A stretch of 64,000 nucleotides of DNA from Clostridiales bacterium (lineage in GTDB: Bacteria; Bacillota; Clostridia; Christensenellales; UBA1242). This document shows, one piece after another, positions 307 to 60,884 of the stretch (the first letter of the stretch is position 1; each line of letters opens with the position of its first letter). The stretch is from NCBI GenBank assembly GCA_015055745.1, contig SVHS01000002.1:1-64000 (forward strand), written 5' to 3'. Below the pieces are notes generated by a model that saw nothing but the letters and a program-made list of their open reading frames with translations, had not been told where the DNA came from and did no database searches. Made by a program: the position numbers and the translations under genes.

Positions 307-336
307 AAATATCTGCATTACGCAGATATTTTTTTT
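307..336 (+). terminator. Rho-independent terminator after spoVG
   Basis: AATATCTGC-ATTAC-GCAGATATT stem followed by a T run. Confidence 0.9.
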
Positions 337-3300: not shown

Positions 3301-3550
3301 CAGCGTTGTATTTGATATATTTGCCTACCTCATCACCGCCTGCATTGTAGTCAAAGGTAGTCTTTTTGGCCTTATTTGCCTTTTTGATCTCTATACCTAG
3401 CTCATCTAGCGGGATAATATCGCCCGCATTGCAATACAATTCTGTCGTTTTGATAGTGATTACTTCATTATTTCGTAAGAAATAAAATGTAGTCAGTCCT
3501 ATACACACTACCACCACGATAGATACCAAGAAAATTAAAAACTTCTTCAT
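335..3550 (-). CDS. GLUG-repeat surface protein with N-terminal membrane anchor/signal
   Basis: The ORF opens at 3595, but the likely start is MKKFLIFLVSIVVVVCIGLTTFYF at 3550, preceded by GGAAGGATTT. Repeated GLUG-like motifs include GGLVGKLSQSKVVASYV, GGLAGKLSSS and GGIAGYISNTNISDT. Confidence 0.85.
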   Translation of the reverse strand: MKKFLIFLVSIVVVVCIGLTTFYFLRNNEVITIKTTELYCNAGDIIPLDELGIEIKKANKAKKTTFDYNAGGDEVGKYIKYNADINAFEVSDKAGDVSLLIKTSNKKYGKFTVNVHIGNGSEANPYYIRSEAELGKIGGSYRLDQHYIMMNDITLTDTFQPIGYDMLAQTYQGFDGEFNGDGHSIFGLNLTGDYDNAGFFYSINANGKVHDLTIDKASISGEYVNAGILAGSVAGTVDKVAIKSATISNTADNSFTGALAGTVSGEIKMSYVSGASIKVGIGTNNALSSVNVGGLVGKLSQSKVVASYVDSANIDVINSTGAFGGFAGSMEIGTDNGTIQQSYANTTSDDSTFGAFVGNVEKAQNFDSTKANMLRHFIGNMAIVYGTNSTILDTDLVTSFDNTFFINEAFVGNPCFYDKDAALYLIRGFAGVSELLNANEYVYYAIDDNNKTLWDTTYVWKINNSALPVLRMGNIYPVDPVGEYFRRNLKSAPLSSKDAFLKKFANDLANESVVLTGDIDITDAWTPVSLKNCTIDGNGKTIKVNLNTVVTSGAESYMGLFTTVDNCTIKNLNVVVTGVSGDAKYVGGLAGKLSSSDMFARTNIENVTVTFEDNFGVINATDFGGIAGYISNTNISDTKVIDLKMNADASVKFAGGITGWTASAKIDNTEVNATVYASDIVGGVVGYSDANGGSSDTFSNITGNVSVNYNKNVDGAKVGGIVGYNTAASIMDSNVTVNINVTSANNEIFVGGVTAINEKLISNVSVSGDNIAIATEVNGLDAKVLLGGIAGRNNGTIEASENFIANVGTLATGKSYFVGGVSAENSGKISTTVVSSNLYGNYVAGIVTEMNNSSATVDQVVVGKYDTNTKSLSQNIIKGDVYVAGVSVNLTGGKITNIQAASEIIGATNSTRSSLIVLVFPYGTELKNATIDSSLSGYGIFYRETWKDFAITSDNNEYEDGHFNLYANDTHHGSMQSVVINTANKGVDNAIAAMGDAFAFGKSYTDSSISSYIKTVNGFNDVSQFTGPYEFTCAISSWFNIAHKVTKTLTFNIGGIWEENNGISLIFLNNL

Positions 3551-3583
3551 AAATCCTTCCCCAAACCGAAATTTGATACCGAT

Positions 3584-3611
3584 ATTATACCCCAATTCTC
3601 CGATTTGTCAA
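3584..3611 (-). promoter_or_regulatory. SigA-type promoter for the 335-3550 gene
   Basis: Minus strand TTGACA-N16-TATAAT (-35 at 3606-3611, -10 at 3584-3589). It lies downstream of the upstream alternative start, which supports the start at 3550. Confidence 0.75.
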
Positions 3612-26209: not shown

Positions 26210-26506
26210 ATGACAAATTATGAAACCGATGAAAGAACACTTAGACTCGCTTACTATATATTAGATAAAAAGACCACCATTCGCGCCACAGCAAAGGCAT
26301 TTAATATACCAAAAAGCACTGTACATCATGACCTCAGCACAAAGCTCAAATATATAAACTATCCACTATATAAAGCCATCAAAAGATTGCTAGACGAAAA
26401 CTTTAGTATCAAACACATTCACGGAGGAGAATCCACAAAACTTAAATATGAAAAATTAAAATCCGAAATAAATAAAAATGATATTTATGAAGTAAATAAT
26501 TTTTAA
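26210..26506 (+). CDS. spoIIID: Sporulation transcriptional regulator SpoIIID
   Basis: DERTLRLAYYILDKKTTIRATAKAFNIPKSTVHHDLSTKLKYINYPLYKAIKRLLDENFSIKHIHGGESTKLKYEK closely follows the SpoIIID pattern (helix-turn-helix plus RHxRGGExTKxKY). Confidence 0.93.
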   Translation: MTNYETDERTLRLAYYILDKKTTIRATAKAFNIPKSTVHHDLSTKLKYINYPLYKAIKRLLDENFSIKHIHGGESTKLKYEKLKSEINKNDIYEVNNF

Positions 26507-28283: not shown

Positions 28284-28311
28284 TAAAAAAATATAGAGCC
28301 ACGCTCTATAC
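28284..28311 (-). terminator. Terminator of the SipW/giant-lipoprotein operon
   Basis: On the minus strand TATAGAGC-GTG-GCTCTATA is followed by TTTTTTT. It overlaps the stop codon of the 28306 gene. Confidence 0.88.
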
Positions 28312-29076
28312 TTTCTTCGCAAAAACTACATCAAAATTCATCATGAAGTTATTTATATTTAGAGTATCTTCATACGCTAGATCTAATACCACTCCTTTAC
28401 ACAAATTAATAGTAGTAGTCTCAGTGATTTCTATAGGTTGTTTACACACATAATATCCATCTTCACCTTCACTAAAATATTCAAAGTTTGGCTTGTATAC
28501 CAAAGTATTTTCCATCAATACTTTATTTTGATAACATTTTGGGATAAATTTTATATAATATGTGCCAGTACTCTTGATTTTTACGCTAATATCTATCTCT
28601 ATAGTCCTATTTCCAGTCACTTCTGGTCTACATCTAAATTTATTGTATTCTTCACCGTTTAGCACAAAAGTAGCATCTACTTCACCATGTATATTCATAA
28701 AACAATTGTTTTCCAATCTCGACGTAGCTATATATATTGCTATAGCCGCGATAGAGATAGCAAGCATTACTGAAAGCAATATAATAATCACATTATTTCT
28801 TCTATTTCTAAAGCGGTAATTTTTAATATTTTCTTCATTTAGTTTTTCTAGATCTTGATTTGATACATTATCTTTAGAAAGTTTATCTCGCAATTCTTTA
28901 TTTTGTTTTGGTTGAGATTTTGTCTTTGCTGTAGCTTTTTTACCTATAGCATTTATCTTTGGTTTACTTTTTGTAGTAGTGGTCGTTGTCTTTGGTTTTG
29001 TAGTTTTAGTAGAGGGAGTCAAAGAGGCGTCCAAAGGTATATCGCTTTTGGTCACATCATTAAAATTTTTCTTCAT
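28306..29076 (-). CDS. Membrane protein with basic/Thr-rich cytoplasmic N-terminus and extracytoplasmic domain
   Basis: 256 aa. KPKTTTTTTKSKPK...KKATAKTKSQPKQNK, then TM NVIIILLSVMLAISIAAIAIYIA. Last gene of the operon. Confidence 0.75.
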   Translation of the reverse strand: MKKNFNDVTKSDIPLDASLTPSTKTTKPKTTTTTTKSKPKINAIGKKATAKTKSQPKQNKELRDKLSKDNVSNQDLEKLNEENIKNYRFRNRRNNVIIILLSVMLAISIAAIAIYIATSRLENNCFMNIHGEVDATFVLNGEEYNKFRCRPEVTGNRTIEIDISVKIKSTGTYYIKFIPKCYQNKVLMENTLVYKPNFEYFSEGEDGYYVCKQPIEITETTTINLCKGVVLDLAYEDTLNINNFMMNFDVVFAKKV

Positions 29077-29092
29077 ATTCCCCTCCTTTTAA

Positions 29093-29728
29093 TTAAAAGC
29101 TACTATCAAAAGAGCCTTCCACTGTAAGCAACAATCTAATAGTTTCGCTTCCATTAATTTTAAAGTTTCCGCTATCGTCTATAAATTGTTCCAAGCCTAT
29201 ACTAAAGCCTGTACATAATGTAATATCTTCATCTTGTCCCATCATCGCATTTGTACCACCTGCAGTCCTATAATAATAGTATCCGCTATCTTCTACGACC
29301 ACATTGGTAGAGCCGTCAGGTCCCGCCATTCCATTAAGCGTACATGGCACAATAGTATCCTCATTTGCTCCTTTGATCACTGCCTCTAGCTTATATCTTA
29401 TATACACTGAGCTAGTACCAGCTTCTTCATTTGCTAGTGTGAGTGTTAGACTATTTACCTCATCTGGCAAAATCTCCAGCTCATCAGAAAATGTGATATA
29501 TGCATCTGCTTGATAATCTTCATCATAGGCATATATTTTTGTACCTGTAGCTCGAGTACCTTGATAAATATTAAAATTCAACTCTCCTATATTTACCGTC
29601 ATGTACAAACTATCTTCTTTACTAGATGTCAGCCATGCATTTGCACCTTGTATACAGCACAAAAGACACGCCAGTAATGTCAATACTGATATAAATACTA
29701 TTGAGATAGAATTTGTCTTATTTTTCAT
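29093..29728 (-). CDS. SipW-type substrate, TasA/camelysin-like secreted protein
   Basis: Likely start is MKNKTNSISIVFISVLTLLACLLCCIQGANAWLTSSKED at 29728, immediately after the previous stop. Short secreted beta-rich protein next to a SipW-like peptidase. Confidence 0.65.
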   Translation of the reverse strand: MKNKTNSISIVFISVLTLLACLLCCIQGANAWLTSSKEDSLYMTVNIGELNFNIYQGTRATGTKIYAYDEDYQADAYITFSDELEILPDEVNSLTLTLANEEAGTSSVYIRYKLEAVIKGANEDTIVPCTLNGMAGPDGSTNVVVEDSGYYYYRTAGGTNAMMGQDEDITLCTGFSIGLEQFIDDSGNFKINGSETIRLLLTVEGSFDSSF

Positions 29729-29729
29729 C

Positions 29730-30428
29730 TTAACTCCAACTAGAACAATATCCTCTTCCGTCCACAGTCTTATCCCATGATTTAAATGCCTCATTTGCTG
29801 ATTGTATAGCATCTAGGCTAATGGTTATTTTAAATTGTTTTCCCATTATTGATGCAGGTGCTGTTGTAGACAACCTCATAGTGTCAAATATCGGCTGATC
29901 TACATAGCCTTCTTCCCCTTCTTGCAATGAGAGTGTTTGGTTATAAAAATATGTCACTTTGTCATTATATTTGCTGTATACCAAATTACCAGACACAAAG
30001 TTTGTACCATACAATATACCCAGCTCAAAATATTGACCATAATCTGTAGTCCCATAGCTGTCAGCGCCCAGTATTTCATACGCCTCTACATAGATCCTCA
30101 CATAAGCATCACATGAGTCTTCTGTATTCATTAGACTGACCGTATCTATTTTGCTACCACCATTCGTCAATGAAAAGTGGAATGTTTGTCCTCTAGAAAT
30201 ATTGCTACTCAATGGATATATTTGGATAGAATCACTCACTCTAGTACCTTCACTAGTCGCACTAGACCATGTACCAAAAGATACATCTAGATTTGGTACT
30301 CCGAGTCTACCCTTTATCGATGCTGTAGCAGTAAAGTAGGACATAGTGACATTGTATGAAAATAGAAACACCAGCACTAAGATAACTAGTGCACTAATTA
30401 TTTTAATTTCTTTGCTGGATTGCTTCAT
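29730..30428 (-). CDS. SipW-type substrate, TasA/camelysin-like secreted protein
   Basis: 232 aa. Signal IISALVILVLVFLFSYNVTMSYFTATASIKGRL resembles SipW-dependent signal peptides (hydrophobic run followed by YFT). Confidence 0.7.
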   Translation of the reverse strand: MKQSSKEIKIISALVILVLVFLFSYNVTMSYFTATASIKGRLGVPNLDVSFGTWSSATSEGTRVSDSIQIYPLSSNISRGQTFHFSLTNGGSKIDTVSLMNTEDSCDAYVRIYVEAYEILGADSYGTTDYGQYFELGILYGTNFVSGNLVYSKYNDKVTYFYNQTLSLQEGEEGYVDQPIFDTMRLSTTAPASIMGKQFKITISLDAIQSANEAFKSWDKTVDGRGYCSSWS

Positions 30429-30449
30429 ATTTCTCCTTTTTATTTTTCT

Positions 30450-32702
30450 TTAGTTTACTGCAAAATAATCATTAAAAGCATTGGTCACAGTAGCATCACC
30501 CCAAGTAGATAATGTCGCGCTAGAATAATCTGCATTATTTACCACTATCAGATCAGCTGCAGTGATATCTCCATCATCTGTCATAGCTACTTTTACGATT
30601 TGATCTGGTCGTAATATACCGATGTAATAATTGTACCCATTAGATACGACAAAACTGCTATTTGCACTAATCTGACCGCTAAATCTCACATAATATGACT
30701 CATCACTATAATTGATAAGATAAGCATCATTAGTACCACCGTTTACCAATTTTACCGTATTTGGTGTCGCAGTCGCACTTGCAGTCGCAAATCCTTGGAT
30801 AATAAACTTCGTATTATTATTCGTGAAGCTACATACCAAAGCTGTCTCATTTGGCTCTAGAGTAAGAGCTGTAGCAGTGTATGTACCATTTGAACCTGTA
30901 AATTTACTATCCAATCCAGATATTGTCTGCAAAGCAAATGTACTGCTTGCAAATAACTCCAAATTTACTGTAATATTGCCTGACACTGTATATTGTGTAG
31001 GATTTTTTACTCTAACAGTAACATTTCCACCGCTTACCTTAGTCTCTACCAACAAGTCAGCATTAGTAGATGATGTGGTAGATGCAGTCACACCGACTTG
31101 CACCCAAGCATCATAATTGTCGCTCACACCGAGATCAGATTTGATAAAAGCTGCGAAAGCATCTGTCACATAAAACCTTTCACAAACATTCACCCTAGAA
31201 TAAGGTGCCAATGTGACTACAGTTTTAGCTTTTTCCACCTCGAAATAGGTAGCATTTGCCGTAGTGCCTTGATATGAGTAATATTGATCTGATGTATTTT
31301 TAAATAAATCCTTACTATTACCACTAGCATATGGATTACTTCCATAACCATTGCCGATATAATAATTAAGCACATAAGACAATGCATATGTCTTGGTATC
31401 TGCAGTGTTGTTTACTAGACTAATATTGGTATAGTAAGTTTGCTGACCACTGCCTGCCTTGTACAATCCTGCATCATGAGATGTTTGGTTGTATATAAGC
31501 ATAGATTTTGAATAATTGCCACCACTAGGACTAACATTAGCAGACGTGATACCGTCATCAGAGCTCAAGCTCTGAATAGCTAGCGCAGCTTTTTGCTCTG
31601 CAGTAGCATTATCGATCTCCGCATAGGAGAATGGTTGGTCATTTATAGTGATACTGTTGGTCACAAGTTTGTGATTATCATAATTTGAGATATTTGATTC
31701 ACCTGCAGAAGTGATTTCTATATTGTCTACTACCTGTATGTAAGCTACACTACCTGCTTGGACTGTATAATTGAAATATTTATTTTCAAATATTTGTTTA
31801 GTATCTGAGTAGCTAGGTGTACTATATGATACCCAACCATCAGAATAATTATATTGAATATTGTTCTCTGCAGCTTCTATACCTGTAGATCCAGTAGATG
31901 ATCGCCAGATACCTTGTATAGACGCTTTGAGCTTAAAGTCTGTAGCTCCTGCTACGACATATATACCTACACCACCGTAAAATCTATCTCCACCAAGCCA
32001 CTTGGTCCCAGACATCGCAGTATCATTTCCTGGGTGAGTAATACCTGTGTCGTAGCTGTAGTGTGAATTATAAACCATCACATATGTAGAGCCTGTCTTA
32101 TATGCGAACCACGCATTACCAGCGTCTGTATTGGTATACAAGATATGAGCATGGGAATAATCATCTACAATATTTGAGTTAGCATCTGTTTTCTTATATA
32201 TCTTAGATATCTTTGCTGTAAGAGTAATAGACAAAGACTGTCCATTGTAGCTAGTATCATTTACATCTGTAAACTCTACACCATTTATGATACCTAATTT
32301 TCCACTACCTGCTGAAATTTTATCTGCTACGTATATATATTTTTCATCTACCATAAGATTGTCTCTATTGGCAAACTGTAATACCACATTGTCAGTACTA
32401 CCACCGCCACTCCAAGACATACTATACTCAAATCTCACATCAAAATCATAATCTATAGCATATTGCATAGCTATCTCAAAATTGTGCCCACTAACACCGA
32501 ACGGCACAGGAGATAGGGTTGTATCATTAATGATAGTGTATTGCTGATTTCCCATGTATGCAGAAGTGCTATTTATGTTTTGACCATAAGTCCTAGTGAT
32601 ATCCGCAGACGCATAAGCAGAGCCGACTGATAAAGCAAAAACTACGCATAACAATGCGTATAAGAATATCATTATTTTCTTATTAGTTTTTGCTCTTTTC
32701 AT
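30450..32702 (-). CDS. Secreted surface protein of unknown function
   Basis: 750 aa. N-terminal signal peptide KKIMIFLYALLCVVFALSVGSAYA-SAD. Low-complexity Ser/Thr/Asn/Tyr-rich body. Directly follows the sipW-like stop. Confidence 0.75.
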   Translation of the reverse strand: MKRAKTNKKIMIFLYALLCVVFALSVGSAYASADITRTYGQNINSTSAYMGNQQYTIINDTTLSPVPFGVSGHNFEIAMQYAIDYDFDVRFEYSMSWSGGGSTDNVVLQFANRDNLMVDEKYIYVADKISAGSGKLGIINGVEFTDVNDTSYNGQSLSITLTAKISKIYKKTDANSNIVDDYSHAHILYTNTDAGNAWFAYKTGSTYVMVYNSHYSYDTGITHPGNDTAMSGTKWLGGDRFYGGVGIYVVAGATDFKLKASIQGIWRSSTGSTGIEAAENNIQYNYSDGWVSYSTPSYSDTKQIFENKYFNYTVQAGSVAYIQVVDNIEITSAGESNISNYDNHKLVTNSITINDQPFSYAEIDNATAEQKAALAIQSLSSDDGITSANVSPSGGNYSKSMLIYNQTSHDAGLYKAGSGQQTYYTNISLVNNTADTKTYALSYVLNYYIGNGYGSNPYASGNSKDLFKNTSDQYYSYQGTTANATYFEVEKAKTVVTLAPYSRVNVCERFYVTDAFAAFIKSDLGVSDNYDAWVQVGVTASTTSSTNADLLVETKVSGGNVTVRVKNPTQYTVSGNITVNLELFASSTFALQTISGLDSKFTGSNGTYTATALTLEPNETALVCSFTNNNTKFIIQGFATASATATPNTVKLVNGGTNDAYLINYSDESYYVRFSGQISANSSFVVSNGYNYYIGILRPDQIVKVAMTDDGDITAADLIVVNNADYSSATLSTWGDATVTNAFNDYFAVN

Positions 32703-33380
32703 TTACATCAACCTCTTACTTTTTTTCATATCGATTTCGTTTTGGACAGTAGTGCTAAAGCACCAAATCGCAGCGATTATAGCTATCAACAACATATAAT
32801 GATCTTTGATATATTTAAAGTAAGTACCGTAGTTGTCTATATGATTTACTACTTTGCCTTCTATTTTGTTGGCCACTTGTAGTTCTTGAGCTATTGTTTC
32901 CTTTACTCCGTCGACCTGTATGCCATTGAGTATTTCATCGAGTGTATAATCATCTGTGCCATGCACTCCATCTTCTCCATAGTATAAATTGTTGATATAT
33001 TCCACATCTTGTTGCCACGTAGTATCGGCTGTCTCATCTGGAGACACTGGACCTACCGCATCACCATGACAAATGTAATAGGTCTTGCCGTTTTCTTCAA
33101 ATATTGCTATCAGTCTATGTGTAGTAGGAAGAGCTCCTGACATAAATTTTACAATATCGCCTTCTTTATATTCAGAAGCTTCTTTCACTATCACCATATC
33201 CCCTCTCTTAAAGTAAGGATACTGACTGTCTGACAACACTTCATATAATTGATATTTAAATCCGTAAACTAATATTAGAACACCTACAAGCATCAAACAA
33301 AGAGCTAAAGCAAGATTGTACATTAATTGCTTAAAGAAATTAAATGTCTTGTTTTCTAATATTTGGTCGCTATAATTCAT
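32703..33380 (-). CDS. sipW: Signal peptidase I, SipW/ER-type (Ser/His)
   Basis: 225 aa. Catalytic Ser region VLSDSQYPYFKRGDMVIV; GDIVKFMSGALPTTHRLIAI carries His where Lys occurs in the bacterial P-type. N- and C-terminal TM helices. Confidence 0.85.
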   Translation of the reverse strand: MNYSDQILENKTFNFFKQLMYNLALALCLMLVGVLILVYGFKYQLYEVLSDSQYPYFKRGDMVIVKEASEYKEGDIVKFMSGALPTTHRLIAIFEENGKTYYICHGDAVGPVSPDETADTTWQQDVEYINNLYYGEDGVHGTDDYTLDEILNGIQVDGVKETIAQELQVANKIEGKVVNHIDNYGTYFKYIKDHYMLLIAIIAAIWCFSTTVQNEIDMKKSKRLM

Positions 33381-33390
33381 CTTGTCTCCT

Positions 33391-36300
33391 TTAAATTTTT
33401 ACGTGTGTTATAGTCACTCCTGTGCCTACTTGTCCAGCGACACCTAAAGTAACCAATGAATTTGTGATAGTAGACTTGTCGTTGATATCCGTATCAGTGT
33501 AATAATAAGTCATTTCACTCGAATATCCATTTACCATACTTACGGTACCAGTCAAAGCTCCTATGTACTTATCGTCTATATTTGACACTTTTGTGATATT
33601 TATAGCAATCTCTGCTGTAGTGTCAGTAATGATACAGCTACGCGCATCACCCACTAGTCCACCTATTCTCATCACATTTGAGTGGCTGATATTTGCATAA
33701 GTAATAGTACCTTTTGAGACAGAATTAGTGATCATTATATACCTAGCATATCCTACTAGTCCACCCATATTCAATACCTTGATATTGCTTACAGTGAGTG
33801 TAGCTGTAGTACCAGATATACCTGTAGACCTGTCAGAGCCATCATCGTCATAATAATAACCCATGATACCGCCTAAGTACGCTACCGTCTTGTCTCTTGA
33901 TAGAGTCGGAGTAAAGATAATCGTCGAATCAATAACATCTGTCTCACTGGCCTTGGCTATAGCACCACCTAGATACAAATCTTTTGTAAAGTCGATATCT
34001 ATCACCACTGAGAATGTCACATTCGCATTTATGATGTCGGTATTGCTTGTAGTACCTACTAGACCTGCTATATACATATCTCCCGTCAATCCGCTAGAGA
34101 TAGTATTGTCCGCAGCCTCACCTAAAGTAATCACGAAGTCACGCACCATAATGTTTTCGATTATTGAATTATTTGCCCCTGTTGCTATCAATGATAAGTT
34201 TATCACATTTGTGTCATCTTTTGCAAACATATTTGACAAATTCATCTGATTATTTTCATTTCCGAAGATTAAATTTTGGATTTTTGCACCATTCAAGTCA
34301 CCAAATAGAGCAAAATCTGTAACTCCAGACAATGTATAATCCAATCCATAGATCGCATATCTATTGCCTTTATCATCAATCTTTCCATTGATAATACCAG
34401 TAAATTCACCAGCTAGCAAAGCGCCATATTTAGCTAGTCTATCATACAATTCAGTTTCTGTCACTCCAGACAAATCGATATTATTGGTCAATAAGTAGTT
34501 TGCTCCAGTAAAGTAGTTTATATTTAACAAATGTGTAGGATTTGCGATTCTATATGGTTCTTCGCTAGTACCTTCACCATAACTAAATAGATGCAAGTCT
34601 ACCACATCTGTGTACTCTACGACTGCAGACATCACTGTACCAGGTCTGCTGACCTGTACACTAAAGTCAGAATATGTACCCATGATATTGATAGGATAAT
34701 AATACACATCTAGACTGCTATCATAATATCCATTCATCTTCATAGAAATTTCAAATGTCACAGTTTTAGATGAAGTATCCAATTTTGAATAACTGCCGTC
34801 CAAAACTTCATCATCTGATGAGCTGATATATTTTGTAAAGCTGTATTGTACGATCATTGTGTCATCTTTCAAGAAATCTGATGTAGCCGACCATACAAAT
34901 CTTGCATTTTCTTCATCGTAGCTAATAGTACCTACAGGACTTGGAGCCACAGTACTGCTCACATAAGTCTCCACATCACTATTGATAAGCTTACCTTCAC
35001 CTAAGCCTACCGCTCTGATATATACGGTAAACAATCCATCAATATCAGTCGGAGCAAGTATCTCACAATCTGTCACTATCGGTCTAGTCTCGTCTACGCT
35101 CTCACCTTTGGTATTGGTATAGACAAATCTCACCTCATATCCATCGGCAGCGTATTCTCCAGCATTCCAAAGCACATACCCATTGTCTATCCTTATATTT
35201 GTGACAGGATCGAGTTTTGTAAATCCTGCGATAGTAGATGAACACATACCGTCGATATAACTATCGCCATATGCTTTGACATTTATATGATACTCCCCGC
35301 TATCCACCAAGCCTGTCAAATCAATGCTTGGCTCAGCGACATTAAATGTATAGTTTTTACCACCAAATAATTTTACTTCATATCTAACTGTGCCATCTAT
35401 ATTATCCCAAGTCAACACACTTTCAGTAGTCTTGATAGTAGATGTCGTAGCCAACCGATATGTTTTTAGTTCCTTACCATCTGCATCTAGATGATAATTA
35501 CTATTCAAAATATTTGTAATATCCGTAGTACCCACAGTCACTAGACTAATAGAGTATTCTATACCAGATTTGATATAAGCATTAGTAGAAGAACTATCTA
35601 CCACATACTGCTCATCTGTAAATCTATAGTAGTGGTACTGATATTCACCATTTTCATCTACTCTATTTACATTTTCGACTGGAATATAAATGTATTTTAC
35701 ACCATTGTCGGTATAAGTGAGACGAATCTTCACGCCTTTATAGTTATCTAGGTCGATGACTTTCCACTTCAATATACCACCAGACACCTCAAGGTATTCT
35801 ACACCACTTGATTTTACAAATGATAATGTCACATCAGTATCGCCCGTCACCGCATATGTGCCGTTTAATACATAATTGTCATCAGATAATGCTCTCACCT
35901 TGATAGCATAATCTGCACCATTCACTATCTCAGGCAATCCCACACTCAAATCATATGTAAGCACGTGAGTAGTATCATTGATAGACACTCCAGCATCATT
36001 TCTAGCTATAGTATATACAAATTCTTCATTGTCAGACAAATCAATCAATGTAATCTCGTATTGCTCATAATATATATTTTTACCATCTTGTACAATATAG
36101 CTTTGAGCAAACTCAAGTACACCATTATTTGCCACAAACTCTGTGTCTGTCAATTTTTGATATGTATAATCTTTTGTAGGTTCTTTAGCATTGAGTAGAT
36201 AATGCTTATCATCAGTCTCTCCTGCACCAAATCCAGCCAGTGCACGTACATTTACTTTATACGCACCAGCCACCACATACTCCGACATATCAAATATGAT

Positions 36301-39300
36301 ATAGTTTGGTATAGCTTCCACACGCTCTACTGGCACAAATTCATATTTTGTCAAATCTGCGTCTGGATTATTTTTCAATACAATACTTTGTGCTTCTTCT
36401 AGTGTATTGTAATAAAGATACACTACCACCATCTTTGCTTCGTCTTGATTAGTAGGATTGATTGGACTGATAGTCAATCGATATACCGGATAATCTATAG
36501 CGCTACCGTCTCGAGTAGGACTCTGATCTAAAAATTTCACTTTACCATCATATGATGTAAGTTCATTTTCACCGTATCTTACAAATGTCTTCATCGCAGC
36601 ACTGTCAGATGTCAAGAAGCCTATGTTTTTGCTTTGAGTATTTGTATAGCTATCTCCACCAAGTAAATGAATGCTTACTGCAAATGATCCACCATCTGAA
36701 AGTTTCAAATACTGATAATCACTAGCACTTGTATATACATAATCTCCGTTTACAAAATTTTCAGTCAAAGGATAATAGTATATATAATCATAATCTCTTA
36801 GATTTATCTTATTTTCTTTGTATACATTAAACAATATATAATTTGAATCATCTATAGGATACTGCACACTTGCACATAAGTCATTTGTATTTTCATGAAC
36901 GGTGCTCACAAACACGTTTTTGTCTTTATTATCAATAAATTCATCATAATCCAAAGCATATATAGTCACTACACCTGAGCCGTGAGTAATGATAATCTTG
37001 TATATACTAGCATTTTGCCAGAAAGTAGATTCTTCACCGCCAAAATTGTAATTTATAGCACTAGACGCATACTCTTCATTTGTAGCAAAAGTGATAACGC
37101 CTAGATTTACGTCCAATGTATCATTGTCCATCATATTTGGTTTCAATTTTGTGACTGACAAGCCACTCAAATCTTCTACCATTATAGAGCTGATAAAACC
37201 TTTAGTAAGGCTCGTATTACCATGCAATCTTACATCGATTGTATAGCTTCTGCCGTCGATAAGTTTGATAGCATCACCACTAATATTGATAACAAATGTT
37301 TCTTGTGTAGCAATCTTACTTAGGTCTTCAGTAGTCAATTTATCTATACTACTACCAGTCAATCCACTTATTAAGGTGTCACAATTATCTGAATTGTCAT
37401 AATACATCGTCTTTACTTCTCCAGATTCCACATCTGTGAATACCAATTCTGCCTTGGAGAAATATTTAGTAGCAGTAAGTACTATCGTACCGTCTTTTAT
37501 TTCAATAGCACTAGCTTTAGGTAAGCGATACACATATATAGGAGCACCAATTGCACTATTTAGAGTATCATTTCTATTACTGATAGCTTGTACCGTAGCA
37601 GACATCACGCCTGTAGAATCCTTAAATGCAATATTTGAAAAGTCATAATAAGTGTTTCCATCAGACATATCTGATAGCAATACATTTACACCGTCATATA
37701 CGACTACTTTATAATCAGTAGCCCCAGTCATCTCGTCCCAAACAAGCATACCTTCACTGACTGACACTGTAGGAGTCTTCATTATCTCAAATCTACAAGT
37801 ATCCAATGAATAGTATGAACTACATAGATTGTATCCACTCACACCAGCGAGAGGCATAGTCTTTACCTTTATCTCATACACACCAGCACCAAACGCTACA
37901 CCATCATAACTATATGGGAAGATGACTTTTGTATCGTTGATAATATCATCATAAGACTCATAAGTATCTGTAGTAGAATCATAGTATTGCAATTTATCAT
38001 CTCTAGATGATATCACTACCGTCTTGTCGTCTTGAGTGTAAGATATTTGGAATACATAGCCAAGAGACAATGCATTGCCAGATATCACATTTTTGCTATT
38101 TTCTGTCCAAGATATTAGCTCCACTGCCGTATTGTCATCTGTAGTCTTTTCTATCTTGTATGGAGCCAACAAACCATATGCAGTGGTAGCAGTGGCATTA
38201 CTGCTGAGATAATAGATATCCACACCAGTAGACGAGTCTGTATACTCTATCACTATCCTCATACTCACATCTTCAGAACGCAGAGTATCAGAGCCATAAG
38301 ACAACGCCACATAAGACTCGATATTTAGCACATTGTCAGTGATTTCCACACCAGGATTTGTATTATTATTCAAATCAATGATTACATTTTCTTTCCATGG
38401 ATTTACGATTTCAAGACTGACATCTACACCCTCTATACCTAACAAATCTAGCACATTAGTAGGCAACGTCACTACAAACTCACCACCCACTACTGCGATT
38501 GTAGGCTGAGCCAATTTATTGATCACTATAGGCTCACTGTAGCTTGAGTTTGTATATCCTTCTTTTTTCGAGATTGTCTTAATATACAGTTCATACTGTC
38601 CTACTAGAGCACTGATATTATATCTATTGCTGGTGATGAGACCACTTTCTTTCTTCATAGTCACACCAGTCTTGCTGTATAGCTCATAGCCTACAGCATT
38701 TTCATCACTATCAAAATGTATGATATTGTCAGAAACATAGATATTTCTAGTAGCAGATAATTTGATAAAACTTAATTCATTAGAATAATCAGAATCAAAC
38801 ACATATTCATTTGAATCATCATTTATAGGCTCTTCGACTTTGATATAAGCTGAAACATAAAGCGTATCCTCTAGAGTACTATTGTCCAATCTATATGATA
38901 TCACACCTTCTATAGCATCATCGTCGTCAAATCTAATTTTCTCTTTGTTTGTCTTACCCGCATTATAAATTTCCAACACGTATTCTTTATCAAAATCTGT
39001 CTTGACAGCGTCGAAAGTAATCATTACAGAGTTTTCATCATTACCATCTTCGTTGTCATTGTATTTATAGTGATTCAACACCAATGGTTGTGGCTTATCA
39101 ATGATCACATTATCACTTTTTACGCTCACAAGATTATCCACAGTATTATCCACATTTTGTGTAATGACAGCCACTCTTACAGCGTTTCCGCCTGCAAGTA
39201 AACTTGGTGAAATATTTTCATATATATAGTCTACATCTACATAAATGTATCCTTCTGCTGTCACATCTGTCTCAGGCACAGCAAGTACTTGCTCATCGTC

Positions 39301-42138
39301 TAATAATAATGAATAATTTAAATAAGTATAAGTAGGTAATACATTATTAAATCTTATGTTTTGTCCATCGCGAGATATAGTAGTCTTGATGAGTAAAGCT
39401 ATATCTTTGGTGTCAGAATATTCACTGTTTATCTTGGTATCTTCTCCAGTAGAAGGCTCTACAAATCGCACCTTGACACTAAAGTTTGCTCCCATATCAG
39501 CCAATATTAAGTCATGCTTATCGTCCATGATCTTTATAGTGTATTTACTTTTCTGATTATCACTATCATATGAGTAGACATATTCTAACTCTTCATCATT
39601 CAACACCAATTTATTTCCATTAGTAGTGAAAGTCTTTACCACACCACCAAATATAAACTTTGCTTCAAGCGCGTATTCCTCAGCATGCTCAGTCTCGATA
39701 ATCAAGTCGTTATTTGCATTTACATAGATATCTGCGATATTACTGATTTTTTCTAGGCTAAGCTCATATGTAAATGAATCTAGGTAATATTGTCCATTTT
39801 CACCACTCTTTGCAATACTTGTCAATGTAAAGTTGTTTTTATCCAAAGTCAAATCAAATGGTGAAGCAAAGTCATACGATACAGACTCACCATTATGAGT
39901 AAATATCTGCTTTTCAGCATGAGAGTCTTCATCAGTCATGGTGATTATGTTTGTCACATTATTGTATCGCAATGTAGGAGTAGACAATCTAGTAATAGTA
40001 GCCACATCAGACATCTTTGAGTCTATGACATTTCCTTTATTACCTATCGCTTGCACTTTAAATGTAGTACTAGCATTTTCATCTAAAGTAAAACCGTATT
40101 CTCCATCGACAGATGTCGTCAAATATTCGCCATCTTGATAAATGTCATACTGACTGACTTTTTCCACCATAAATTTGATTTTTGCCACACTCGTATCTTC
40201 TACAGTCACGAAAGGTTTAGCCAACACAGTAAATGGTATAGTAGCACTAGACACAGCAGAGCCATTCCTCCTATAAGAGAAAGTCTTGCTACCGTCACCT
40301 AGCACCTTTACTGACACATTGTAGCTACCACCATCTAGAGCATTCTCTCCAGTGATAGCATAAGAAGTATCTTGTATTTCTTTTTCATTCTGAAGATTTC
40401 CTCTGCCGATAATCAATCTAATATCCGCATCGGCATTTATGTCACTCTTATTTACACTGATAGTATTGTTTGCGATATTTATCTCACTGATTGCCTCCAG
40501 CTGTGTAAATGTATACATAAATGGATCACTGTCGATATTGTCTTCATCTCCCAAACGAACAACCTTTACTGTATGCACTCCTGCGCTAAAGTTTTTATCT
40601 GACATACCGATAGAGGGGTCTGTACTTGTGATTGTTTCTTCATATTTTTCACTATCATTGATATCAAAAGTCACATATACGTTATCCTCTCCGATATCAG
40701 AGATATTTAGAGTATAGTCTTCTATAGATGGTGTAGCTTGAGCCTTTTTTGTAAATATCTTTTCACTAGCCAATGAAGATATATAATACACATCTCCAAC
40801 CTTTTCATCTCTAGCCATAGCTCGGATAGTAAATCTATAACCTCCTGCTGGACGATTTGCGAGTGAATACTTTACATCTCCAATCGCAGTATCATCAGAA
40901 TCCACACCTGACAAAGCTACTCTATATGCAGAAGCGTTTACTATCTCACCCCAGACCAAGTCACTACCATCACAAATCACCGTAGGGGCAGAGAGCCTTG
41001 TAACATTTACACTAGATATTTTGCTAGTCTTGGCTACATTTTTAGTTTCCACACCCAATACAGGCAATACTTTTACAGTAGAGACACCTTCACTCGTGAT
41101 TTCGCCGACATCTTTTAGGTCAAAATAATTTTCTGTCACATGATTTATCTTATCATCACCTACAAAAATATCATATCCAGAAGCATTCACTACGTTTTGC
41201 CAAGATAGATTAGTACCCTTCAATATCAAATCTGGCGTATCCAACACACTGATAGGAAACACATAAATAGCAGAATCACAATACTTTCCACCTCCGAAAG
41301 CGTCCTTAGTCTCTTCGCTTACCACCGCCTTTATTCTGATCTCCGCACTACTTCCAGCATAAGAGTCTGGCAAATCCTTTAGACTCAATGTAGTCTCTGC
41401 TGTATTTTCTGCTATGAGCATATCACCCAAGTATACATTGTATCGAGCATATGCAGAAGTTTGATTAAAACTTAGTACCCCGCCTACCACACTTGCCTGT
41501 ATGACAGCACTGCTCTGATACATACGGAACGTAGTAGAATAATCTGACGTAATATAGGCATACACATAAGATGGCACATTGGCTCTAACCTGCACATTTA
41601 ATAATGTATCATACCCCTTTGAGCCATATTCTTTAAGTGAGTATGTATTGCTATTGCCAAGATTTATCTCATCATTATTGATTTTTAGAGTATATCCAGA
41701 GGCATTCGCCACAGGGTCAAAGGTAAGCATTTGAGCCTGTTCGTTGTAAGTCAAATTTTTAGGAGCTTTCAATTTCTCGCTAGTCTTTTTTACCACAACA
41801 GTCATGATATCTTCTTTGTCAGGATTATCATCTGATATAACCCTGATAGTAGTATTTCCTTCTTTTATCGCTTCAAGCTTATTCCCGTTGACTTTTATGA
41901 TATTTTCGTTTCCACTCATGAGAGTATATCGATTGTTTGTAGCGTAGCTAGGCTGTACCACCACAAAATCATTCATCTCAAGCACCTGATTTTCCAACAA
42001 AACTATCTGAGTCTGTCCTTCACTGAGCTTGAAGTAAATATCATCTACAGAGACTTTACTTTCGCAACCAAAAATGAAAAATGCAAACAGCATCAACACT
42101 GTCATTAAAAATATTTTCTTATGTTTTGATTGTGACAT
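33391..42138 (-). CDS. Giant (about 2915 aa) lipoprotein with Ig-like/FN3-like repeats and a C-terminal GLUG block
   Basis: ORF opens at 42201 but the likely start is MSQSKHKKIFLMTVLMLFAFFIFGCESK at 42138 (RBS AAGGGG upstream, lipobox FFIFGC). Recurrent 'L.W....A..Y.V' modules. GLUG motifs near the C-terminus (IGGLVGDARSCIITDTTAEI). Confidence 0.9.
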   Translation of the reverse strand: MSQSKHKKIFLMTVLMLFAFFIFGCESKVSVDDIYFKLSEGQTQIVLLENQVLEMNDFVVVQPSYATNNRYTLMSGNENIIKVNGNKLEAIKEGNTTIRVISDDNPDKEDIMTVVVKKTSEKLKAPKNLTYNEQAQMLTFDPVANASGYTLKINNDEINLGNSNTYSLKEYGSKGYDTLLNVQVRANVPSYVYAYITSDYSTTFRMYQSSAVIQASVVGGVLSFNQTSAYARYNVYLGDMLIAENTAETTLSLKDLPDSYAGSSAEIRIKAVVSEETKDAFGGGKYCDSAIYVFPISVLDTPDLILKGTNLSWQNVVNASGYDIFVGDDKINHVTENYFDLKDVGEITSEGVSTVKVLPVLGVETKNVAKTSKISSVNVTRLSAPTVICDGSDLVWGEIVNASAYRVALSGVDSDDTAIGDVKYSLANRPAGGYRFTIRAMARDEKVGDVYYISSLASEKIFTKKAQATPSIEDYTLNISDIGEDNVYVTFDINDSEKYEETITSTDPSIGMSDKNFSAGVHTVKVVRLGDEDNIDSDPFMYTFTQLEAISEINIANNTISVNKSDINADADIRLIIGRGNLQNEKEIQDTSYAITGENALDGGSYNVSVKVLGDGSKTFSYRRNGSAVSSATIPFTVLAKPFVTVEDTSVAKIKFMVEKVSQYDIYQDGEYLTTSVDGEYGFTLDENASTTFKVQAIGNKGNVIDSKMSDVATITRLSTPTLRYNNVTNIITMTDEDSHAEKQIFTHNGESVSYDFASPFDLTLDKNNFTLTSIAKSGENGQYYLDSFTYELSLEKISNIADIYVNANNDLIIETEHAEEYALEAKFIFGGVVKTFTTNGNKLVLNDEELEYVYSYDSDNQKSKYTIKIMDDKHDLILADMGANFSVKVRFVEPSTGEDTKINSEYSDTKDIALLIKTTISRDGQNIRFNNVLPTYTYLNYSLLLDDEQVLAVPETDVTAEGYIYVDVDYIYENISPSLLAGGNAVRVAVITQNVDNTVDNLVSVKSDNVIIDKPQPLVLNHYKYNDNEDGNDENSVMITFDAVKTDFDKEYVLEIYNAGKTNKEKIRFDDDDAIEGVISYRLDNSTLEDTLYVSAYIKVEEPINDDSNEYVFDSDYSNELSFIKLSATRNIYVSDNIIHFDSDENAVGYELYSKTGVTMKKESGLITSNRYNISALVGQYELYIKTISKKEGYTNSSYSEPIVINKLAQPTIAVVGGEFVVTLPTNVLDLLGIEGVDVSLEIVNPWKENVIIDLNNNTNPGVEITDNVLNIESYVALSYGSDTLRSEDVSMRIVIEYTDSSTGVDIYYLSSNATATTAYGLLAPYKIEKTTDDNTAVELISWTENSKNVISGNALSLGYVFQISYTQDDKTVVISSRDDKLQYYDSTTDTYESYDDIINDTKVIFPYSYDGVAFGAGVYEIKVKTMPLAGVSGYNLCSSYYSLDTCRFEIMKTPTVSVSEGMLVWDEMTGATDYKVVVYDGVNVLLSDMSDGNTYYDFSNIAFKDSTGVMSATVQAISNRNDTLNSAIGAPIYVYRLPKASAIEIKDGTIVLTATKYFSKAELVFTDVESGEVKTMYYDNSDNCDTLISGLTGSSIDKLTTEDLSKIATQETFVINISGDAIKLIDGRSYTIDVRLHGNTSLTKGFISSIMVEDLSGLSVTKLKPNMMDNDTLDVNLGVITFATNEEYASSAINYNFGGEESTFWQNASIYKIIITHGSGVVTIYALDYDEFIDNKDKNVFVSTVHENTNDLCASVQYPIDDSNYILFNVYKENKINLRDYDYIYYYPLTENFVNGDYVYTSASDYQYLKLSDGGSFAVSIHLLGGDSYTNTQSKNIGFLTSDSAAMKTFVRYGENELTSYDGKVKFLDQSPTRDGSAIDYPVYRLTISPINPTNQDEAKMVVVYLYYNTLEEAQSIVLKNNPDADLTKYEFVPVERVEAIPNYIIFDMSEYVVAGAYKVNVRALAGFGAGETDDKHYLLNAKEPTKDYTYQKLTDTEFVANNGVLEFAQSYIVQDGKNIYYEQYEITLIDLSDNEEFVYTIARNDAGVSINDTTHVLTYDLSVGLPEIVNGADYAIKVRALSDDNYVLNGTYAVTGDTDVTLSFVKSSGVEYLEVSGGILKWKVIDLDNYKGVKIRLTYTDNGVKYIYIPVENVNRVDENGEYQYHYYRFTDEQYVVDSSSTNAYIKSGIEYSISLVTVGTTDITNILNSNYHLDADGKELKTYRLATTSTIKTTESVLTWDNIDGTVRYEVKLFGGKNYTFNVAEPSIDLTGLVDSGEYHINVKAYGDSYIDGMCSSTIAGFTKLDPVTNIRIDNGYVLWNAGEYAADGYEVRFVYTNTKGESVDETRPIVTDCEILAPTDIDGLFTVYIRAVGLGEGKLINSDVETYVSSTVAPSPVGTISYDEENARFVWSATSDFLKDDTMIVQYSFTKYISSSDDEVLDGSYSKLDTSSKTVTFEISMKMNGYYDSSLDVYYYPINIMGTYSDFSVQVSRPGTVMSAVVEYTDVVDLHLFSYGEGTSEEPYRIANPTHLLNINYFTGANYLLTNNIDLSGVTETELYDRLAKYGALLAGEFTGIINGKIDDKGNRYAIYGLDYTLSGVTDFALFGDLNGAKIQNLIFGNENNQMNLSNMFAKDDTNVINLSLIATGANNSIIENIMVRDFVITLGEAADNTISSGLTGDMYIAGLVGTTSNTDIINANVTFSVVIDIDFTKDLYLGGAIAKASETDVIDSTIIFTPTLSRDKTVAYLGGIMGYYYDDDGSDRSTGISGTTATLTVSNIKVLNMGGLVGYARYIMITNSVSKGTITYANISHSNVMRIGGLVGDARSCIITDTTAEIAINITKVSNIDDKYIGALTGTVSMVNGYSSEMTYYYTDTDINDKSTITNSLVTLGVAGQVGTGVTITHVKI

Positions 42139-42172: not shown

Positions 42173-42201
42173 ATTTTAACACATAAATAACATTTTATCA
42201 A
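42173..42201 (-). promoter_or_regulatory. Candidate promoter of the 42138-28306 operon
   Basis: Minus strand TTGATA-N17-TAAAAT, 35 bp upstream of the preferred ATG. Confidence 0.55.
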
Positions 42202-50902: not shown

Positions 50903-51505
50903 TTGAAAAAATATAATCAAATGAATTCTAATTGGTTGTTGTGGGGGATCATTTTACCAATCCTAGTGTTTTTCGTATCGATGAATACTGTATTTAGCTA
51001 CTTTACAGCATCTGTAGGAGAGCAACGCAGCTCTATATCTACTGGTATCATCAGGATAGGCTTTAGCGACGATACTAAAACAAACAATGTATTGGTTAGT
51101 TCCTCATCAGCTGAAGATATCACATATATCGTACCAGGAGACACTTTAGCATTTAGTGGGTCAGTAGTCAATACTGGAAATGCTGGTATATATGTGATAC
51201 TACGTCTCAATATTTCATTGACCAAAACCAATGGTACTGAAAATATCAAAAAATATTATACATATGTAAATTCTACTCTTACCGAAATACCAGCTACAGG
51301 ATATACTCAAAAAGCCTTTGTCTTAGCTACAGAGAATGCGAAGCAAGATATTTTGATAGAGTATTCATTTGCAGACAGTTTTGGTGATGAATATAAAAAT
51401 GCGACAGGTTCATATGATTTGACAGCATATGCTGTACAGACAGCTAATATATCTGATACAGAGGCGACTTCTCTGCTCATGACCAAAGCAACAGCAAATT
51501 CTTAA
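50903..51505 (+). CDS. SipW-type substrate, TasA/camelysin-like (TTG start)
   Basis: MKKYNQMNSNWLLWGIILPILVFFVSMNTVFSYFTASVGEQRSSISTGIIRIGFSDD. TTG start preceded by TAGGTGGC. Confidence 0.65.
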   Translation: MKKYNQMNSNWLLWGIILPILVFFVSMNTVFSYFTASVGEQRSSISTGIIRIGFSDDTKTNNVLVSSSSAEDITYIVPGDTLAFSGSVVNTGNAGIYVILRLNISLTKTNGTENIKKYYTYVNSTLTEIPATGYTQKAFVLATENAKQDILIEYSFADSFGDEYKNATGSYDLTAYAVQTANISDTEATSLLMTKATANS

Positions 51506-52825: not shown

Positions 52826-54124
52826 ATGAAAAAATTGGTCATGCTGTGTCTCGTATGTGTAATTTTTATATTGTCCGCAAATATTGGTGTGGTATATGCT
52901 CTGGAAAATGAGAAATTAGAGTTCAATTATAACGGACGCGTTTTTACATACAATTTGACCGAAAATATAAAGTCCAGTTCAGTTTTTGATATAGATTATG
53001 AGATAAATAAATACGATAGATTTTCGTCCCATGAGGATAGAAAAATTTTGCTAAAGAAAATGTTATCCATCGGAATAGATAAATCTATAGCGATAGAATA
53101 CCTCTTTCCAAATATCACCAATCTCATATCTAAGATAGAAAAAAACATATATATCCAGCCCCAAAATGCCAGCATGAAAATCAATACAAATAGTGAAAAA
53201 GTTTTCCACATAAAAAACGAAGTAGTAGGCATCATATTGGATAAAGATAAGCTTCTAGACACCATATGTAATCATTATTTATCTGATAAAAATTTAAATT
53301 TCAATATCCCTATCAAAAAAATTTCACCTAAAATACTATCTTCAGATTTTTCAAGAAATACACATCTTAGAGCAGATTTTTCCACAAATATATCCTCATC
53401 TAGCTCAGATAGAAAACATAATATTAAAAACGCACTAAATAGCCTAAACAATGTGGAAATCTTGCCTGGAAATACTTTTTCTTTCAACCAAATAGTAGGT
53501 AGACGAACAGCAGAAAATGGTTATCGTGAAGCAAAGATCATTGTAAACAATGAGTTTGTGGACGGATTGGGCGGAGGCGTATGCCAAGTCTCTACCACAC
53601 TATACAATACAGCTCTACTTAGCGGCATGGAAATCATCGAAGCCAACAAACACAGCAAACAAATAAGCTATGTAAAATATGGATTTGACGCCATGGTAAA
53701 TTTTGGCAGTAGCGACTTGAAATTTCGAAACAACACTAGCGAAAAAATCACCATTATTACGAATTACTCTCAAGATACTGCACGCATTAGGATATTTGGT
53801 GCCAGCTTGGACAATGTTCAATACAAACTCAAAAACAACATCATCAATCTCACCGAACCAGAGGAAGAAATCCTTTACGACAAAAAACAAGAATACTTAG
53901 ATAAAGTCGTATATGACGATGAATTCTTTTATCTTAATAGAGGAAATATCGGTATGGAAGTCCACTCATACCGTGAAAAATATGTAAACGGAATGCTCTC
54001 CGAGACCCAATTACTCAGAAAAGATAAATACACCGTACAAAATACAGTCAAGATTTATGGCACAAAAAAACGCACAGATTCATCTGTGCATTTTTCTAAA
54101 CCTTTTCACTCATTGGATATATAA
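52826..54124 (+). CDS. VanW-like family exported protein
   Basis: LNNVEILPGNTFSFNQIVGRRTAENGYREAKIIVNNEFVDGLGGGVCQVSTTLYNTALLSGMEIIEANKHSKQISYVKYGFDAMV is typical VanW. N-terminal signal peptide. Confidence 0.92.
   Translation: MKKLVMLCLVCVIFILSANIGVVYALENEKLEFNYNGRVFTYNLTENIKSSSVFDIDYEINKYDRFSSHEDRKILLKKMLSIGIDKSIAIEYLFPNITNLISKIEKNIYIQPQNASMKINTNSEKVFHIKNEVVGIILDKDKLLDTICNHYLSDKNLNFNIPIKKISPKILSSDFSRNTHLRADFSTNISSSSSDRKHNIKNALNSLNNVEILPGNTFSFNQIVGRRTAENGYREAKIIVNNEFVDGLGGGVCQVSTTLYNTALLSGMEIIEANKHSKQISYVKYGFDAMVNFGSSDLKFRNNTSEKITIITNYSQDTARIRIFGASLDNVQYKLKNNIINLTEPEEEILYDKKQEYLDKVVYDDEFFYLNRGNIGMEVHSYREKYVNGMLSETQLLRKDKYTVQNTVKIYGTKKRTDSSVHFSKPFHSLDI
54072..54096. terminator. Bidirectional hairpin terminator within the 3' end of the VanW-like CDS
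   Basis: GCACAGA-TTCA-TCTGTGC flanked by T runs on both strands. It serves the convergent minus-strand gene ending at 54096. Confidence 0.78.
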
Positions 54125-58473: not shown

Positions 58474-60759
58474 TTATTGATTTTTCAAATAAGTCCTAGC
58501 CACCAATACTGTCATATCATCTTTTGCCGACATATCATTTAGCGAGAGTGCTTCATTTAATATAGCCTCCGCTATAGTCTGAGGATTGTTTGTCGCTTGA
58601 CGACTCACATACTCCACAAGATTTTCCGTAGTCTCAAAAGCATCAATAATTCCATCTGTTGCCATTATCACTATATCTTTGGTAGAGATTGTAGTTTTGT
58701 ACACAGCAGGTGATATATTATCAAGGGCCCCTATAGGTAAAGCCCCTCCTTCTACCACTTCGATATTTGCTTCTCGCTTGATAAGCCCAAAAGGTGCACC
58801 CACTTTTATGAAATCCGCTATCTCCTTTTCTAAATCCAATAAACATACATCTAGTGTAGAATAACTCTCTTGATTGTTAATACTTAGCAATTTGTTTACA
58901 CTATCGATGATTATATCGTTGTCAAATCCCACTTTATAAAAATTTTCTATCAATCCAAGTGTCATCGCACTCATCTTATTTGCGTTCTTACCTGTACCCA
59001 TTCCATCACAGAGAGCCAATAAAAATTTATCACCATTTAGCCTAACTATACTATGACAATCTCCACACTCATCATTTCCTGCTTGATTACAGCTAGCCAA
59101 TCCAAATACACAATCATACTTACTTCTTTTCCTGAGATGTACTGAGTTAAAATCACTTTCCTCTAGTGGTGAAACTTTCACAATCTGCATTTGACATTTT
59201 AGAGTCTCACTCAATACTTTTTCTATCATTGGATTATATGCATTTTCACTTTTTATGATAAGCACTGCTGACAAATCTTCGTTTTTCTCAGTATAAAGCA
59301 ATACCTCTCTACACTGAATATTTTGACTGAGCAATCTAGATATAATCTTGTTTTCTCTAGCGATATCAAATCTCACATTTGTATCTATCTCATCTCCTAG
59401 GTCTAGCAATAGTCTGCTCACAGCACCCATCTGGTCTGCCATCAATATTTTGACATTATTTACATCTGCCATGATATTTTTGTATTGCCTATACTCGTCA
59501 CTCAGCCTATTGATGAGACCAATCAAATGATTGACTTTAGCGCACCTATTTGACAAACTCGATGGTATGTCTAATAGTGTCAATTTCCCTTTCGTAACAG
59601 CGATTTCCACCAATGTAGTCAAGTTTGATTTATTGTCTGTGCCTAGTGACCTAGTGCAACGATTTTTATCCAAACAATCTTTACAACAAGTCGCCATCAC
59701 TTCCCTTATCAACATAGCCACCAGCTCATCTTTCGTAAGCTCTCTTTTCACCATATTTAAATGTATTTGTTTCATATCCATAAATACATTGCTCAGCTCA
59801 CTCATACGCTTTTTAATATTTTTTCGAGTAGTGTTTATGAGATTTCTCGATGACATTTCGCTCTTCTTTACATATACTAAGTCCGCTAGTCTATTGAGTG
59901 ATTTTTTAGGTATACATACAAACACAATACATGACAAAAGTATGGGAGCTAATTGATACAAAATTTCAATATCTTGCCTAAAAAAGAAATACTGAATAAA
60001 TACATCGGTAAGCACCACCATAAATGTAATCTTCCACCTATTGGGTAAACTAAATACTCCAGCCAAGAGTGCCAAAATGACAAACTCTGCTACCGGAAGA
60101 AGAGAAAAACTGTATAGTGACACGCCAAAAGCAAAAGAAAGAGTGAGCGAATAAGTAAGAGCCGGACTACCTATCGCCACACACACCAAAATAATAAGCA
60201 TCAATATAAATCTATATAGGTGTACATTCAATATCACTACTGGAGCAAGTCCTACACCTATAGATGCCACAGCGAACATGAAACATATACTTTCATCGAG
60301 AGTAAGTTTGAAACAATTTTTTCTAAGAAGCATTACTTGTAAAACAATCGTGTATACAAATAAACAAATAAGACCCAACAATATGTAAAAAATCAATTGC
60401 TTAAATTCTGTGTGATAATAATACATATATGTCACCAGTCCGATGATGTAGCTAAAAATATTGGTGAGCAAATGTATCTTCTTTTTTGCAAACCTATGAA
60501 TATAAAAAACTATCAAGCCTACAGCTACCACAGTAAGCACGACTAAAAAATTTTCCAACGATACATTTGTAGCCACACCACTTAACAACGTCAAGACGGC
60601 TACAATCTTTTCATCTATTCCCACAAATAGACACGCAAAATAAAATGCAAATAAAAACGGACTAAGTCCGCTTATCTTCGCATTGGCCAAAATTAGACAC
60701 ACAAATCCTATAGCCAAATATTTTAATACATTATTAAAATTAATTTTTTTTATTTTCAT
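58474..60759 (-). CDS. spoIIE: Stage II sporulation protein E (PP2C-type phosphatase)
   Basis: Multi-TM N-terminus; LLALCDGMGTGKNANKMSAMTLGLIENF...STLDVCLLDLEKEIADFIKVGAPFGLIKR...GALPIGALDNI...DIVIMATDGIIDAF. RBS GAGGAT before ATG 60759. Adjacent to tilS, as in many Firmicutes. Confidence 0.95.
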   Translation of the reverse strand: MKIKKINFNNVLKYLAIGFVCLILANAKISGLSPFLFAFYFACLFVGIDEKIVAVLTLLSGVATNVSLENFLVVLTVVAVGLIVFYIHRFAKKKIHLLTNIFSYIIGLVTYMYYYHTEFKQLIFYILLGLICLFVYTIVLQVMLLRKNCFKLTLDESICFMFAVASIGVGLAPVVILNVHLYRFILMLIILVCVAIGSPALTYSLTLSFAFGVSLYSFSLLPVAEFVILALLAGVFSLPNRWKITFMVVLTDVFIQYFFFRQDIEILYQLAPILLSCIVFVCIPKKSLNRLADLVYVKKSEMSSRNLINTTRKNIKKRMSELSNVFMDMKQIHLNMVKRELTKDELVAMLIREVMATCCKDCLDKNRCTRSLGTDNKSNLTTLVEIAVTKGKLTLLDIPSSLSNRCAKVNHLIGLINRLSDEYRQYKNIMADVNNVKILMADQMGAVSRLLLDLGDEIDTNVRFDIARENKIISRLLSQNIQCREVLLYTEKNEDLSAVLIIKSENAYNPMIEKVLSETLKCQMQIVKVSPLEESDFNSVHLRKRSKYDCVFGLASCNQAGNDECGDCHSIVRLNGDKFLLALCDGMGTGKNANKMSAMTLGLIENFYKVGFDNDIIIDSVNKLLSINNQESYSTLDVCLLDLEKEIADFIKVGAPFGLIKREANIEVVEGGALPIGALDNISPAVYKTTISTKDIVIMATDGIIDAFETTENLVEYVSRQATNNPQTIAEAILNEALSLNDMSAKDDMTVLVARTYLKNQ

Positions 60760-60884
60760 TTTTATCCTCAAAAACAAGGATAACATTTAATTAATTTATA
60801 TTTTTATTAAAAATTTGTAAAAATTATAAGAAAATTCACTATTTTTATATTTTTTCGTATATTTTTTTAATAATTTTTAAATTT

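Follow-up and report, generated by a model that had tools for sequence, protein, structure and literature searches.

The stretch of DNA analysed here, called the window below, comprises 64,000 nucleotides of contig SVHS01000002.1 (C7) from a Clostridiales bacterium (assembly GCA_015055745.1). On its minus strand it carries six tightly packed genes (positions 28306-42138), which are numbered op1 to op6 from the first gene onward and are referred to together as the cassette. We consider it probable, though well short of certain, that the product of this operon is a proteinaceous surface fibre of the TasA/BsaA/camelysin kind; comparable fibres give cohesion to the biofilms of Bacillus and Clostridium. 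The genome is 876 kb in size and 96.7% complete. It belongs to the genus Candidatus Onthoplasma (Christensenellales), which has been placed in family UBA1242 (PMC12306168) and whose genomes measure 0.8-1.2 Mb; judged by the peptidase sequence, Candidatus Onthoplasma faecigallinarum is its closest named relative. Comparisons were made with 34 genomes of the genus, 197 of the bacterial family and 396 of the order outside the genus.

Profile homology among the small substrates and the membrane protein

SipW-like N-terminal segments were found on op3, op4 and op5. In op4 (29730-30428; 232 amino acids, aa) an invariant Tyr31-Phe32 pair lies, in the alignment, just after this segment and near the probable mature N-terminus; the N-terminus of TasA begins Ala-Phe-Asn-Asp (PMC10151520). 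The mature regions, with signals removed, were compared by hhalign, and shuffles and unrelated beta-rich slices of op1 served as controls; the latter scored at most 24. op4 and op5 (29093-29728; 211 aa) matched at 89.7% with a score of 45.0 (shuffle maximum 20.7), and op5 matched the outer domain of op6 (28306-29076; 256 aa) at 94.8% with a score of 51.7 (shuffle maximum 20.2). op4 also matched SipW substrates encoded at other loci (95.7%, score 58.3, shuffle maximum 25.6). op6 has no cleavable signal; it consists of a basic, predicted cytoplasmic N-terminus with a net charge of +14, one strong transmembrane (TM) segment at residues 93-121 and the outer domain homologous to op5. On these alignments op4, op5 and the outer domain of op6 are homologous to each other, and op6 is a membrane-tethered paralogue of the substrates. 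The original prediction had listed op4 and op5 as substrates co-encoded with a SipW-like peptidase, and the links to each other and to further SipW substrates agree with it. Two of its assignments have changed: op3, described as a 750-aa secreted protein, also bears a SipW-like signal, and op6, described as a TM protein with a basic tail, becomes a tethered paralogue of the substrates.

In their mature regions, the SipW substrates found at other loci of the genus match TIGR04088 as well as TIGR04090, the BsaA model (E 7.7e-5 to 3.8e-4), with 18-22 bits for TIGR04090 against a cut-off of 60 bits; a second group of other-locus substrates matches the camelysin family PF12389 over its cut-off. TIGR04088 was matched by four of 12 op4 orthologues (best 4e-5) and by no op5 orthologue. 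By profile homology, op4 and op5 are linked to BsaA via the other SipW substrates. Direct matches were not obtained with PF12389 (TasA/camelysin) or the TapA model TIGR04087 for any of op3-op6, nor with TIGR04090 for op4, op5 or op6. Elsewhere in the window (50903-51505, plus strand) lies a protein with a SipW-like N-terminus (SYFTAS) that weakly resembles further SipW substrates of the genus.

A SipW-type peptidase and substrates at distant loci

In op2 (32703-33380; 225 aa), Ser52, His88, Arg89, Gly106, Asp107 and Gly175 are invariant in the 17 aligned rows. Its profile matches SEC11 of the eukaryotic (human) signal peptidase complex with E=7.5e-18, as compared to 2e-4 for an ordinary bacterial signal peptidase, and its earlier description as a Ser/His-type signal peptidase is upheld by both observations. 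Against TIGR02228 it scored 51.1 bits (cut-off 51.85), a model matched over the cut-off in 19 of the 34 genus genomes; against the Bacillus SipW equivalog NF046067 it reached 34.4 bits, where 190 are needed. Judged by its catalytic residues and the SEC11 match, op2 is a signal peptidase I of the endoplasmic reticulum (ER)/SipW type. It is the sole TIGR02228-type peptidase found in this genome, and as a separate ordinary signal peptidase is also encoded there (G000:C7:140443), op2 is not the housekeeping enzyme. Two observations were made on such peptidases in other genomes. G018 and G012 each encode an additional SipW-type peptidase, longer at 378 aa, next to proteins that have SipW-like N-termini (L048:9967-11103 and L049:9515-10651), and in G012, G040 and G001 only SipW-type peptidases and no ordinary signal peptidase I were found, which may reflect incompleteness.

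op3 (30450-32702; 750 aa) combines its SipW-like signal with no known domain, no LPXTG motif and no C-terminal TM segment. Its hhalign values against op5 and op6 (28-33) are slightly above the controls, which is no more than suggestive of copies of the subunit fold within it. Presence of op3 was compared with that of TIGR04088 substrates encoded outside the cassette: such substrates occur in all 18 genomes with op3 and are missing from 12 of the 16 that lack it (Fisher P 3e-6, relatedness not corrected). In three of the four exceptions the absence of op3 is unsafe (the sequence of G042 is masked, a contig end interrupts G004, and cysS was not matched in G021); the fourth is G016. This co-occurrence, with distant-locus substrates mostly absent from genomes that lack the cassette, amounts to a phylogenetic test of SipW dependence and supports a role for op2 as the peptidase of SipW-type substrates genome-wide.

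Fibre or non-polymeric coat

Several results weigh against a fibre. AlphaFold2 models of op4 and op5 are beta-rich and mediocre (predicted local distance difference test scores of 69.7 and 75.5, respectively); when compared by Foldseek with the PDB they gave no match at E<=0.001, and TasA was not among the 50 matches listed. The pilins CfaB, Csu and SafA did appear, at E 0.05-0.2, and are not taken as evidence. Profiles of op3, op4, op5 and op6 searched against PDB sequences did not match solved TasA or camelysin; op4 and op5 of this genome reach neither TIGR04088 (cut-off 19 bits) nor PF12389; and op6 has no significant hhalign link to the other SipW substrates, its whole-genome matches being weak (E down to 1.1e-6). 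Finally, the peptidase is kept in seven genomes that have neither op3-op6 nor recognised substrates, with its catalytic residues intact in the six that were aligned, so that it must serve another role there.

One possible alternative, which we regard as rather improbable, is a surface coat or adhesin complex that does not polymerise, in which the secreted op3, op4 and op5 are held by op6 and the giant lipoprotein op1. The lack of a fold match to TasA for the op4 and op5 models is in its favour, as is the nature of op3, a large secreted protein with no PDB sequence match and no demonstrated strand-exchange partner. However, by profile, op4, op5 and op6 form one superfamily with SipW substrates that fit the model of the polymer-forming BsaA, and the characterised SipW substrates TasA and BsaA do polymerise (PMC9674648, PMC7395162). 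We favour the fibre.

Conservation, loss and the giant lipoprotein

The open reading frames around the peptidase were compared by blastp with the window proteins, and all six, in unchanged order, were found in 17 Candidatus Onthoplasma genomes (G000, G002, G003, G005, G006, G009, G011, G012, G018, G019, G020, G023, G040, G043, G044, G045 and G046). Within this set the contig of G009 is cut after op3, the upstream genes not being on it, and the cassette of G046 is split over two contigs; G041 holds a partial copy. Protein identities are mostly about 30-55%, with lower values for the divergent pair G003/G023, and an order conserved in 17 genomes cannot be due to chance. In most genomes the flanks are cysS and sufCB; in the window, cysS lies divergent on the op1 side, and sufC and sufB lie downstream of op6. 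By profile search, 18 of the 34 genus genomes contain op3 and 17 give a strong op6 match; the two sets differ only by G041. The op3 family was seen in Candidatus Onthoplasma only, and in the 396 genomes of the order outside the genus both op3 and op6 gave only weak or partial matches, so the cassette looks genus-specific within the sample. The neighbourhood survey that had been proposed as a check was thus positive inside the genus and negative outside it.

op1 (33391-42138; 2915 aa) had been predicted to be an FN3/GLUG lipoprotein. The lipobox Cys25 is invariant in 15 orthologues and GLUG (PF07581) is above its cut-off at the C-terminus; FN3 was not confirmed by Pfam. In its place, Pfam finds Big_2 at the N-terminus of six of the 15 orthologues, the N-terminus here being Big_2-like, and the protein contains repeated beta-type units of ~100 aa that are mutually similar (134 of 1275 window pairs at >90% probability). 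Two further proteins of this kind are encoded on the minus strand of the window: another giant lipoprotein, 6771 aa long and with numerous GLUG-like stretches (4822-25137), which has relatives close to the cassette in many genomes of the genus, and a 1086-aa protein with a GLUG match (335-3595).

A cysS tree placed eight genomes without op3-op6 (G007, G010, G013, G014, G015, G022, G047 and G048) in a clade adjoining G046, which has the full cassette; this fits loss of these genes rather than primitive absence. The giant gene and the peptidase are both kept in five of the eight (G007, G010, G013, G014 and G022), G015 and G047 retain the giant without the peptidase, and the locus of G048 is cut by a contig end. 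Conversely, G001 and G008 have the peptidase beside cysS, the giant being absent at that locus; neither gene, then, needs the other. A 25,710-aa open frame that first appeared to be op1 in G042 was rejected, since it is a run of N (masked sequence) and no giant gene.

The original prediction saw in the giant lipoprotein a possible cell-surface anchor of the fibre, and an arrangement in which op1 is the true centre, with op2-op6 in its service, would fit its place as first gene in every complete cassette, the conserved promoter it bears, and its persistence with the peptidase in five genomes that lost op3-op6. We find this unlikely. The N-terminal family of op1 occurs in 105 of the 197 family genomes (some matches cover part of the profile), whereas outside the genus no convincing op3 or op6 was found, and the two genes that persist also occur singly (G015 and G047; G001 and G008). 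The anchor role of op1 is weakened accordingly: judging from this distribution, the giant is older than the fibre cassette and persists in genomes that have lost the fibre genes. On homology and topology, op6 rather than the giant lipoprotein is the probable membrane anchor of the fibre.

Transcription of the operon and surrounding genes

All six open reading frames of the original prediction are in place, and the gaps read from the sequence are 10 bp (op1-op2), 0 (op2-op3), 21 (op3-op4), 1 (op4-op5) and 16 (op5-op6). The start of op5 was corrected to the ATG at 29728, closely preceded by GGAG; position 29734 holds a GTT codon, which is no start. The proposed promoter (42173-42201, minus strand; TTGATA-17-TAAAAT, with TGTG before the -10) is not significant as a single match, such sites being found 87 times in comparison to 81.5 +/- 9.3 in shuffles. 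It is nevertheless considered conserved, because an element TTTGATAAAA..TGTGTTAAAAT or TAAACT is present 33-48 nt upstream of the op1 start in 18 of 19 orthologues; a similar element is also seen before sufC. The predicted terminator (28284-28311, minus strand) was recovered as a hairpin followed by seven T residues, TATAGAGC-GTG-GCTCTATA-T7 from 28311 to 28284, with -9.2 kcal/mol by our own script; it overlaps the op6 stop codon, and a hairpin with a T-run follows op6 in eight of 16 genomes. The conserved promoter and the short gaps suggest that op1-op6 are likely to form one transcript. No other RNA elements were found in the window.

The window also encodes SpoIIE (58474-60786, minus strand) and a SpoIIID protein (26210-26506, plus strand); sporulation genes would be unusual in a strongly reduced genome such as this one of 876 kb. 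A VanW-like protein with a putative peptidoglycan-binding domain (52826-54124, plus strand) adjoins an RmuC-family protein. A wall-less cell was considered as a reason for the surface proteins and ruled out: Mur ligases are present in all 34 genus genomes, and peptidoglycan is therefore expected. That the cassette serves the spore surface (coat or exosporium) and not a vegetative fibre is very improbable, for despite the two sporulation genes in so small a genome, with that for SpoIIID close to the cassette, its promoter is of vegetative type and resembles the element before sufC, and the spoIIID gene remains where the cassette has been lost.

A model of the proposed fibre

In the fibre model, op1-op6 would be made from one promoter of vegetative type. 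op2 would act as the dedicated protease, cutting the SipW-type signal segments off op4, op5 and probably op3, a role suggested by its catalytic residues, its co-conservation and the type of signal. Once released, op4 and op5 would, by analogy, polymerise, each subunit donating an N-terminal strand to the next; their mature N-termini (aromatic-Phe-Thr/Ser) resemble that of TasA. op6 may cap the fibre or anchor it at the membrane, as a subunit domain tethered by a TM helix with a basic cytoplasmic tail. op3 may be an accessory or minor fibre protein, and op1 would be a long lipid-anchored adhesin or stalk that predates the cassette and is now co-expressed with it. More tentatively, and with less confidence than we place in a fibre as such, this could be a distinct anchored fibre of monoderm bacteria, with strand-exchanging subunits, a tethered paralogue with a basic tail at its base, a 750-aa partner of new fold and a giant lipid-anchored adhesin in the same operon, restricted to one genus of reduced-genome gut bacteria.

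How TasA-type fibres attach to the cell is an unsettled question, and a subunit fold seemingly fused by evolution to a membrane helix, as in op6, is a simple candidate for the anchor. Bacteria with genomes of about 0.9 Mb would still be spending ~14 kb on a surface fibre system.

Comparison with known systems

In Bacillus subtilis, TasA fibres form by donor-strand exchange with the help of TapA (PMC9674648, PMC10151520), which was first called an anchor and is now seen as a filament-starting chaperone (PMC10151520). The tapA-sipW-tasA operon, named in the original prediction as the known analogue, shares with the cassette an ER-type peptidase, small beta-rich co-encoded substrates and an aromatic-Phe mature N-terminus. 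It differs in that op3-op6 have no TapA match, that the TasA fold is only putative here, and that the cassette has two paralogous substrates with a tethered third, the 750-aa op3 and a giant lipoprotein as first gene, an arrangement rightly said to be unfamiliar. The sipW-calY1-bc_1280-calY2 genes of Bacillus cereus likewise combine a single SipW with a pair of paralogous substrates and lack TapA (PMC10151520, PMC4292775); the tethered paralogue, op3 and the giant lipoprotein are not described there.

By analogy, the closer functional counterpart is the sipW-bsaABCRSD operon of Clostridium perfringens, also of the Clostridia, in which a SipW-type peptidase is encoded with secreted proteins; release of BsaA needs SipW, and BsaA polymerises, the recombinant protein also by itself (PMC7395162). 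Other SipW substrates of Candidatus Onthoplasma match the BsaA model. Unlike that operon, in so far as it is described, the cassette includes a giant lipoprotein gene, a tethered paralogue and op3, which has no family match, and has no counterpart of the two-component genes bsaRS.

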